In this document: piece after piece, positions 37,502 to 38,827 of the stretch | How positions within the stretch are numbered: the first letter of the stretch is position 1 | How the letters are laid out: each line of letters opens with the position of its first letter | Origin: Synergistaceae bacterium | Lineage (GTDB): Bacteria > Synergistota > Synergistia > Synergistales > Synergistaceae | Direction: 5' to 3' | Length of the DNA stretch: 38,827 bases | Assembly: GCA_031257775.1 (NCBI GenBank) | Contig: JAIROA010000023.1 | Location: forward strand, 1 to 38,827 | Position numbers and translations under genes: made by a program | Notes under the pieces: model-generated | Database searches by the model: none | The model's input: the letters and a program-made list of their open reading frames with translations, nothing else | What the model was told of the DNA's origin: nothing

Positions 37502-38023
37502 TCAAAACGAAAGCGCCAGCGCGAGTTCATGGTTCATCAGGCTCAGTTCAGGGACGCTTTGCGGGCGTATCCGGAGTATGACGCCGAAGACGTCGTCGTT
37601 CCACACGTATGACGTGACGCCGTCTCTTTTGTTCTCCAGCGATGGCTTATCGTATTTCTTCATCGCGTATTCCTTTATGCTGTCCGGCTTTGCCGATTCG
37701 GCGAATGACAGACGTACCATCACGAGCTGGTTTTTTTTGAAAGAGAATTTCATTTCGTCTATCTCGAACCCCTCCCACGTCCGGCCATCGCCCGGCACGA
37801 CGTACTGCTCGGAGCTGCCCTCGCCGAACAGGAGCCCCTGATCGGCAAGCTTATCGGCACTGTCTCCCCACTTAAGTCCCGCAAAGCCATCAGGCTGATC
37901 CTTGAGAGGGGGCAGCTTCAGGTCTGTCTCCCCCGCGTAAAGCGTCCCGCGGATGAGAAGGGACAGGAGCGCCGTAGCGGCTAAAAGCGCTATCGGTCTT
38001 AGGTTTAAGCGGCTGAAATTCAT
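37502..38023 (-). CDS. Hypothetical exported protein, 173 residues
   Basis: Function unknown. The ATG at 38023 has AGGAGG 11 nt upstream. A signal peptide (LRPIALLAATALLSLLIRGT, cleavage near LYAG) precedes a domain of about 140 residues. It contains DGFAGLKWGDSADKLADQG, then KFSFKKNQLVMVRLSFAE and a closing SYVWNDDVFGVILRI. The FxGLKWGDSxxxL start is common in small periplasmic proteins of unknown role. It is first in a three-gene group with the two downstream genes; all three products leave the cytoplasm or face outward, suggesting a shared envelope job (inference). Confidence 0.75.
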   Translation of the reverse strand: MNFSRLNLRPIALLAATALLSLLIRGTLYAGETDLKLPPLKDQPDGFAGLKWGDSADKLADQGLLFGEGSSEQYVVPGDGRTWEGFEIDEMKFSFKKNQLVMVRLSFAESAKPDSIKEYAMKKYDKPSLENKRDGVTSYVWNDDVFGVILRIRPQSVPELSLMNHELALALSF

Positions 38024-38095
38024 AGTGAAATAACCTCCTGATCTATGGCCTGACTCCCCATACAACTAAAATGTGGTAGTCGCGTGTCCGCTTAA

Positions 38096-38213
38096 TTTAA
38101 GGAAAGGCTGATTTATCGTTAGGGGCCTAAAGGGTGAAGATTTCAACCCTTGCAACAACTGGGCTCTTAAACGTTGAATGTCGTTTAGGCGAATTAATCA
38201 GCGTTTCCTTAAA
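38096..38213. repeat. 118-bp palindromic element with 20-bp terminal inverted repeats
   Basis: The ends 38096-38115 and 38194-38213 are inverted copies with 2 mismatches in 20, beginning TTTAAGGAAA. Inside are a second inverted pair (GCCTAAA near 38125 with TTTAGGC near 38184) and a smaller hairpin (AAGGGTGAA...TTCAACCCTT). The structure resembles a small non-autonomous mobile element or an extended RNA hairpin. Its right end supplies the stop codon of the antitoxin gene. Confidence 0.6.
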
Positions 38214-38502
38214 CAGAATGTACGCTATCGTCGAACGGAACTATAGTAAGTTTGTAGCCTATCGGCGTAAGCATTTTAAAAAGCGTGTCAATCTGTGGAG
38301 TGGCTTTCAGGCTTTCCAGTCGCGCCACTGCTGATTGCTTGACACCTGCCACTTCTGCCAATTGTTCCTGTGTCATGCCTTTTGCTTCCCTCGCTTCAAT
38401 CAGTTTCCCGATAAGCTCAACTTCAAACTCAATTTTGGCGCGTTCTGCCGGTGACACGTTTTGATCGTCATTATAAAAATCACGGAAACTCTTGCTTGCC
38501 AT
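38209..38502 (-). CDS. HigA-type antitoxin / XRE-family regulator (solitary)
   Basis: A 97-residue protein from the ATG at 38502 (AGGA 9 nt upstream; the ATG at 38511 has no suitable site). An N-terminal leader (SFRDFYNDDQNVSPAERAKI) is followed by an XRE helix-turn-helix: EAREAKGMTQEQLAEVAG, then VKQSAVARLESLKATPQIDT. This is the layout of HigA antitoxins paired with Gp49-like HigB toxins, which bind both toxin and their own promoter. The toxin gene that should precede it is missing except for a nine-codon stump. The stop codon lies inside the adjacent palindromic repeat, so the C-terminus may have been altered. Base composition is more AT-rich than the neighbouring operons. Confidence 0.85.
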   Translation of the reverse strand: MASKSFRDFYNDDQNVSPAERAKIEFEVELIGKLIEAREAKGMTQEQLAEVAGVKQSAVARLESLKATPQIDTLFKMLTPIGYKLTIVPFDDSVHSV

Positions 38503-38507
38503 GTCAA

Positions 38508-38537
38508 TCATTCCTCGTAAAAATCTACCTCAAACAT
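38508..38537 (-). pseudogene. Nine-codon stump of a HigB (Gp49-like) toxin gene
   Basis: The ATG at 38537 has AAAGGG 8-9 nt upstream and encodes MFEVDFYEE, then TGA. Gp49-like HigB toxins typically begin M(F/Y)EV.FYED. The TGA overlaps an ATG of the antitoxin frame. The size and position suggest that an internal deletion removed nearly all of the toxin and left its translation start. Confidence 0.5.
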
Positions 38538-38568
38538 TAGAAACGCCCTTTCTTTACATCACACACTC

Positions 38569-38597
38569 ATTATAACAAATTCGTTATAAAAAGTCCA
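38569..38597 (-). promoter_or_regulatory. Promoter and palindromic operator of the antitoxin gene
   Basis: On the minus strand TATAAT (38574-38569) lies 17 nt after TGGACT (38597-38592). The near-perfect palindrome TTATAACGAATTTGTTATAA covers 38589-38570, overlapping the -10 element. This is where a HigA-type antitoxin would be expected to bind for autoregulation. Confidence 0.65.
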
Positions 38598-38631
38598 TAG
38601 AGAGGCTTGATATAAAATTTGGATGCGCTTA

Positions 38632-38660
38632 TTGACCAATGCGGGGAAGGGCGGTACAAT
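38632..38660 (+). promoter_or_regulatory. Promoter of the tRNA-Pro gene
   Basis: TTGACC (5 of 6 to consensus) and TACAAT (5 of 6) are separated by exactly 17 nt. The tRNA 5' end follows 11 nt after the -10 element. It looks fully functional although the tRNA it serves is broken. Confidence 0.75.
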
Positions 38661-38671
38661 ACCACTGCTTT

Positions 38672-38716
38672 CGGGATGTAGCGCAGCCTGGCTAGCGCAC
38701 CTGCATGGGGTGCAGG
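38672..38716 (+). tRNA. tRNA-Pro (anticodon GGG), 5' part only
   Basis: The sequence begins CGGGATG and continues through a normal D-arm (GCGC AGCCTGGCTA GCGC) and a complete anticodon arm: stem CCTGC/GCAGG with loop ATGGGGT, anticodon GGG. After 38716 there is no variable loop, T-arm or 3' acceptor strand (CATCCCG is absent). The following sequence instead encodes part of HisD. The gene as read here cannot make a working tRNA. Confidence 0.8.
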
Positions 38717-38827
38717 CTATCGGTGCGATGGCCTACGGTACGGAAAGCGTTCCCAAAGTTTACAAAATATTCGGCCCTGGCAATCAATATGTAACAGCCG
38801 CCAAGCAAACGGTTGGTTTGAAAGAAG
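38707..38827 (+). pseudogene. hisD: Histidinol dehydrogenase fragment joined to tRNA-Pro (continues past window)
   Basis: In the frame starting at 38707 the sequence reads [18 protein letters not shown], then [19 protein letters not shown]. This matches the middle of HisD (about residues 200-240), including the family signature around GPGN.YV..AK. HisD oxidises histidinol to histidine in two NAD-dependent steps. The N-terminal half is absent: upstream is the tRNA-Pro gene. The [15 protein letters not shown] wording recalls Bacteroidota enzymes. Codons are more AT-rich (AAA, GTA, ACA, TAT) than in the rest of the window. It may be open to the right; a start codon and ribosome site are lacking. 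Confidence 0.75.

Follow-up and report, generated by a model that had tools for sequence, protein, structure and literature searches.

A higBA-type operon probably stripped of its toxin by a single deletion, with promoter, operator and antitoxin left in place

The window analysed here (the whole 38,827-nt contig G000:C20, from a 2.12-Mb, 144-contig, 80%-complete genome) carries a higBA-type type II toxin-antitoxin operon from which a single deletion appears to have taken the body of the toxin, sparing promoter, operator and antitoxin; from the alignment with intact operons, we put the probability of this reading at roughly 0.85. A first-pass annotation of this DNA had named a promoter, a palindromic operator, a toxin ribosome site and start, a stop and a complete antitoxin, and all of these were found in place on the minus strand (Table 1); its proposal that the toxin body had been deleted from a higBA operon was borne out by the alignment. 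Since the event, its boundaries and the spared parts are all readable from one clean scar, the locus offers a natural toxin-free higBA operon which, together with its intact relatives, makes two things testable: the control of the promoter by HigA alone, and the ability of a solitary HigA to blunt addiction by incoming higBA elements.

Table 1. Features of the locus, in coordinates of the window.
Feature	Position	Strand	Remarks
Dispersed repeat, inverted ends, MITE-like	38096..38213	.	Abuts the antitoxin stop codon; a neighbour, outside the operon
Complete HigA-like antitoxin	38209..38511	minus	100 aa; HTH_3 E 7.9e-14, HTH_37 28.8 bits; likely start ATG 38502
higB-like toxin remnant (MFEVDFYEE, stop)	38508..38537	minus	Start, about 8 toxin codons, junction codon, stop; likeness to relatives' toxin starts
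Deletion junction GAGGA	38512..38516	minus	Doubles as antitoxin Shine-Dalgarno, 9 nt before ATG 38502
Promoter TGGACT-17-TATAAT	38569..38597	minus	Sequence match; similar arrangement in aligned intact operons
Palindromic operator TTATAAC-N6-GTTATAA	38570..38589	minus	Core at same place in 7/7 close intact relatives

The nine codons of the remnant (38537-38511, followed by TGA at 38510-38508) are preceded by an AAAGGG toxin ribosome site and resemble the toxin starts of the relatives, such as MFDVDFYEDK in L030 and MFEVEFYEDR in L033. In the alignment, toxin codon 7 of the relatives is followed by GAAGAY or GAGGAY, and their antitoxin is preceded by GARAGGA; the window passes directly from toxin codon 8 to the antitoxin Shine-Dalgarno and lacks 326 nt, not a multiple of three, relative to both L030 and L032, so that the distance from toxin start to antitoxin start is 35 nt as against 361 nt in L030 (5649 to 6010). 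Aligned with L029, L030 and L032-L037, the window shows a single long gap in the toxin gene. The GAGGA at the junction would represent 1 to 5 shared bases, according to whether codon 7 of the parent was followed by GAAGA or GAGGA and whether its far side read GAAAGGA or GAGAGGA; each of these is seen among the relatives. In the scheme that we propose, a horizontally acquired operon would have undergone one deletion of about 326 nt that fused toxin codon 8 to the Shine-Dalgarno ahead of the antitoxin and left a stop after nine codons.

That the assembler, rather than evolution, dropped the toxin has to be weighed because the window is a contig of a metagenome-assembled genome (MAG) whose last 111 bases (38717-38827) are misjoined: there tRNA-Pro(GGG) breaks off after its 5' half and gives way to what reads by eye as hisD. 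In the same genome, contig C49 holds that tRNA start together with the rest of the gene, as do loci of G031 and G033. The misjoin, however, lies outside the operon, some 120 bases beyond the promoter, and both sides of the deletion junction match intact operons. By our reasoning, the 1 to 5 bases shared at the junction, far below the word of an assembler, also argue against repeat collapse by a k-mer assembler, and the chance that the missing toxin is an assembly artefact seems to us very slim.

An antitoxin scan of genome contigs returned 15 loci, 12 of them at 74-90% identity (L029-L040) and three weak. The intact pair that was to be sought in related genomes is present in seven of the 12 (L030 and L032-L037, with antitoxins 74-84% identical), and these align with the window across operator, toxin start and antitoxin. 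Each has directly upstream of the antitoxin a complete toxin ORF, encoding a full 119-residue HigB-like protein, which lies between the same operator and the antitoxin, begins like the leader of the window and ends at the antitoxin Shine-Dalgarno; the alignment thus points to descent of the window from a pair with a complete toxin. Among the others, the toxin of L029 is disrupted by frameshifts and a recognisable operator is lacking; no toxin match was obtained for L031 and L038, which by eye resemble the family from the antitoxin Shine-Dalgarno onwards, the antitoxin of L038 being cut by the contig end; and L039 and L040, with antitoxins that lack the 5' part, likewise gave no toxin match. 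In L038, upstream of 3756, the antitoxin stands close behind the end of a PDDEXK_9 nuclease-type gene. No same-species genome with an intact pair was found, and the ancestral state is therefore taken from other lineages.

The nine-codon ORF has its own ribosome site and a stop close to the antitoxin start, as might be expected if it were a leader peptide designed to control the antitoxin through attenuation or translational coupling. Yet the matching codons open a full toxin in seven of the seven close intact relatives, for which reason we reject this explanation as scarcely credible. A toxin-less copy of this leader in distant lineages would have spoken against a deletion; no such case turned up in the 12 close relatives. 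With the leader in none of those 12 and a full toxin in seven of them, the nine codons are, on the alignment, a deletion scar.

The nature of the missing protein can be judged from L030, where the toxin belongs to PF05973 (E 1.5e-22) and matches HigB of Streptococcus pneumoniae (6AF3 chain A) with an E of 8e-36 over residues 1-117 of 119, while NCBIfam gave no match for it. In the pneumococcal protein R68, R73, F90 and K92 are key for catalysis, with K92 having the smallest effect, according to the portion of the published work available to us (PMC7984235). Mapped from the alignment, these residues correspond to R70, R75, F92 and K94 here, which are the same in all eight intact relatives aligned (L030, L032-L037 and L109), and all four fall inside the part deleted from the window, so that the deletion would have removed the reported catalytic residues. 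Where a HigBA operon has a complete HigB-like ribonuclease toxin upstream, the window has nine codons, and tblastn found no toxin match in it at E 1e-4.

The promoter agrees with the consensus at 10 of 12 positions and has in addition a TG ahead of the -10 box; as the 828-base region holds four promoter-like sites, where shuffled sequence averages 1.1, the match is by itself weak evidence. The operator overlaps the promoter spacer and the -10 box, both in the window and in the close intact relatives. Its core, ATAACN6GTTAT, occurs once in the whole window, and 23-37 nt upstream of the toxin start in seven of the seven close relatives with an intact toxin; allowing up to two mismatches, ATAACRAATTTGTTAT has one site in the 2.12-Mb genome (80% complete), at this locus, and a reversed control pattern has 0 matches in the same genome. 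Taken together, the single site, the absence of control matches and the constant position in these relatives indicate that the palindrome is more than chance. Further afield the core was found in seven of 16 more loci chosen for the survey, which amount to 15 places since L109 and L144 coincide; these two are not judgeable, having only about 35 nt upstream of the toxin. The exact pattern is absent from two complete pairs, L004 of the same genus and L002, the second pair of the same genome, and since more distant complete pairs such as L004 do without it, the operator belongs, by this comparison, to only part of the family. No terminator-like site was seen in 38000-38827, and Rfam gave no match in 37900-38827 at E up to 1.

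Antitoxins with a helix-turn-helix domain can act in trans, and the domain is intact here, which raises the thought that the solitary antitoxin now regulates other genes through copies of the operator elsewhere. The lack of a second operator at two mismatches or fewer in this 80%-complete genome leaves the antitoxin no other obvious target of that kind, however, and we consider such a role highly unlikely.

The first-pass annotation held that autoregulation had been kept, and the operator is indeed in place; full strength, however, was probably not preserved. The HigBA complex of S. pneumoniae binds its palindromes more tightly than does HigA alone, in the portion of the study available to us (PMC7984235), from which we infer that HigA, deprived of its co-repressor HigB, would repress more loosely and independently of the toxin level, so that by analogy autoregulation is probably kept only in a weakened form. 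The antitoxin of the window and the L030 toxin match HigA and HigB of the pneumococcal system (PDB 6AF3, 6AF4; SP_1143/SP_1144), and palindromes lie in the promoter of both operons, although the window has no toxin and one conserved palindrome as against the four tested in the pneumococcus (PMC7984235). As to translation, a ribosome loaded at the former toxin start would terminate 5 nt short of the antitoxin ATG; with its own GAGGA site also retained, the antitoxin is probably still expressed.

The antitoxin ORF is free of frameshifts and stops. Its HTH_3 and HTH_37 matches exceed the Pfam cut-offs and it matches HigA of S. pneumoniae (6AF3 chain B) with an E of 2.2e-14, identifying it as a helix-turn-helix antitoxin homologous to HigA; as this alignment covers only residues 23-94 of the window protein, the transfer of individual residues is partial. 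NCBIfam returned seven antitoxin matches, all below its cut-offs, and PADLOC 19 weak ones, the best at 2e-07 and most of them across the HTH region. The likely start is the second ATG, at 38502, because in L033, L034 and L035 this is the sole ATG available. Of 95 positions compared, 13 are changed in the antitoxin relative to L030 and 13 relative to L032, residues 23-38 being free of differences in both comparisons. In pairwise comparisons with L029-L032, dN comes to 0.09-0.11; dS is 1.16 for L031 and 1.87 for L032 and is saturated for L029 and L030. These values indicate that the antitoxin is under purifying selection across the whole span. Dating the toxin loss by dN/dS was ruled out, as dS is large or saturated and the constraint cannot be assigned to the time before or after the deletion.

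This bears on the idea that the antitoxin is a neutral relic, a remnant heading for loss that has no present function and is intact because the deletion, with which the idea is compatible, was recent. The integrity of the promoter, the operator, the Shine-Dalgarno and all 100 codons speaks against it, as do dN values to L030 and L032 (0.093 and 0.108) as small as that between L030 and L032 (0.118); on the other side, saturation of dS leaves the age of the deletion open, the toxin is gone save for its first codons, a repeat is inserted right at the antitoxin stop codon, and in the census described below 12 of 91 complete antitoxins are preceded by broken or partial toxins. We would give a neutral relic somewhat less than even odds. 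The last and least certain step of our own scheme has the deletion leave behind a solitary antitoxin able to neutralise related incoming HigB toxins, and such a protective role strikes us as possible, if doubtful.

Decay of a chromosomal toxin-antitoxin system, ccdO157 of E. coli, was reportedly described by Mine et al. in 2009, in toxin and antitoxin families that differ from those of the window. In the Klebsiella pneumoniae complex, the available part of one survey counts 2253 orphan antitoxins, of which 49% had another CDS that was perhaps a toxin and 8% had none, and offers both decay and anti-addiction as explanations (PMC7192599). To count as an orphan there, an antitoxin must lack an adjacent toxin and share 75% identity or more across 50 aa with the antitoxin of a valid pair; that of the window qualifies at 84% to L030 and 83% to L032. 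Like the Klebsiella orphans, the window has an antitoxin near to that of a valid pair and a missing toxin; it differs from them, as far as that part of the survey goes, in keeping operator, toxin start and junction, so that the event itself can be read. The genes reported as strongly represented in the leading regions of plasmids also include orphan antitoxins (PMC11541004, in the part available). With orphan antitoxins already documented, the present locus is a well-preserved, well-bracketed case of a known route of decay; a limited literature search found no paper on this locus or on a solitary HigA of this branch.

For protection against incoming elements the closest parallel at hand is ccdEch of Erwinia chrysanthemi, a chromosomal toxin-antitoxin system whose anti-addiction effect was tested (PMC2654758, in the part available); by analogy, the chromosomal antitoxin of the window might neutralise a related incoming toxin. 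HigB toxins elsewhere in the genome, the other matter raised by the first-pass annotation, came down to one in this 80%-complete assembly. This belongs to a second complete HigBA-like pair (L002 733-1394, on G000:C106); the toxin is 49-50% identical to that of L030, but it already has next to it a complete antitoxin of its own, 39% identical to that of the window. Viral contigs yielded one partial antitoxin match only (57% over 30 residues), and in plasmids there were 26 records, every one below 60% identity.

The operon was probably acquired by horizontal transfer, to judge from its base composition (42% GC in leader and antitoxin vs 57% in the window) and from its nearest relatives, which lie in other groups: the antitoxins at 74-90% identity come from records titled Clostridiales, Desulfovibrio, Chitinispirillales, Coriobacteriales and others, many of which we take, from their appearance, to be termite-gut MAGs, whereas the closest other antitoxin from the family of the window itself reaches 62%. 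The nearest same-genus antitoxin, L004 of G032, is likewise 62% identical and has a complete toxin. No syntenic intact pair was seen in the same genus, in a DNA search that matched the repeat and the tRNA-Pro region and scored 40 of 119 candidates in G032 and 40 of 109 in G033. The gene at 37502-38065 has relatives in all three other genus genomes, and upstream of tRNA-Pro in G031 and G033 lie other genes. The neighbouring repeat is 117 bp long with 21-nt inverted ends (TTAAGGAAA...TTTCCTTAA). A search of 38000-38827 against its own genome, with 40 of 58 candidates scored, listed 44 matches, namely the window itself, two tRNA-Pro and 41 of the repeat, about 25 of these 41 being near full length; the repeat also has matches in all three other genus genomes.

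Toxin loss recurs. We took a census of 439 genomes (52 from the window's own family, 349 from the family of G053 and 38 from that of G054) plus loci from further searches. It covers the retrieved loci, that is, 25 of 48 matches in the own-family search, 20 of 22 in another and all the listed rows in five others, and the underlying searches differ in E limit from 1e-3 to 1e-20. Profiles were built from the matches; antitoxins with E above 1e-6 and toxins with E above 1e-15 were dropped, an antitoxin was called complete at 90% of the profile or more, and 13 antitoxins and seven toxin pieces below 90% were set aside. Among the loci retrieved there were 91 distinct complete antitoxins, 66 with a complete toxin upstream and 25 without; the 25 comprise 11 with toxin pieces or partial toxins, the window with its short remnant, and 13 with no recognised toxin, some of which may be paired with another toxin family. 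The breaks include frameshifts, which are possibly MAG sequence errors, and the partial toxins L132, L168 and L005 still span 75-86% of the profile.

Conversely, 66 of 70 complete toxins have a complete antitoxin and four do not (L007, L143, L146 and L150); the antitoxin of L007 is incomplete since the contig ends there. L163, counted as complete in the census, has a shortened first antitoxin and a second one downstream. In this small and partly retrieved sample breakage was commoner on the toxin side (12 vs 3), and strictly one-way decay is contradicted by the complete toxins with an incomplete antitoxin in L143, L146 and L150, and by L163. Read by eye, the translations of all four (L143, L146, L150 and L163) keep the N-terminal half of the antitoxin, and their HTH part is largely missing or has lost its core. 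The HigA contacts listed for the pneumococcal complex fall between residues 10 and 34, in the part of PMC7984235 available, and the shortened antitoxins retain the half that holds these listed toxin contacts. It is conceivable, if improbable, that decay in this HigBA branch is directional and follows protein architecture: toxins would be deleted and whole antitoxins would stay as shared immunity against the HigB elements of the gut community, and beside an intact toxin the antitoxin may shed its DNA-binding half, but not the N-terminal half that binds the toxin. In two further loci (L102 1341-1472, by eye, and L093 1808-2036), the toxin is cut to its two ends by internal loss and the antitoxin is complete.
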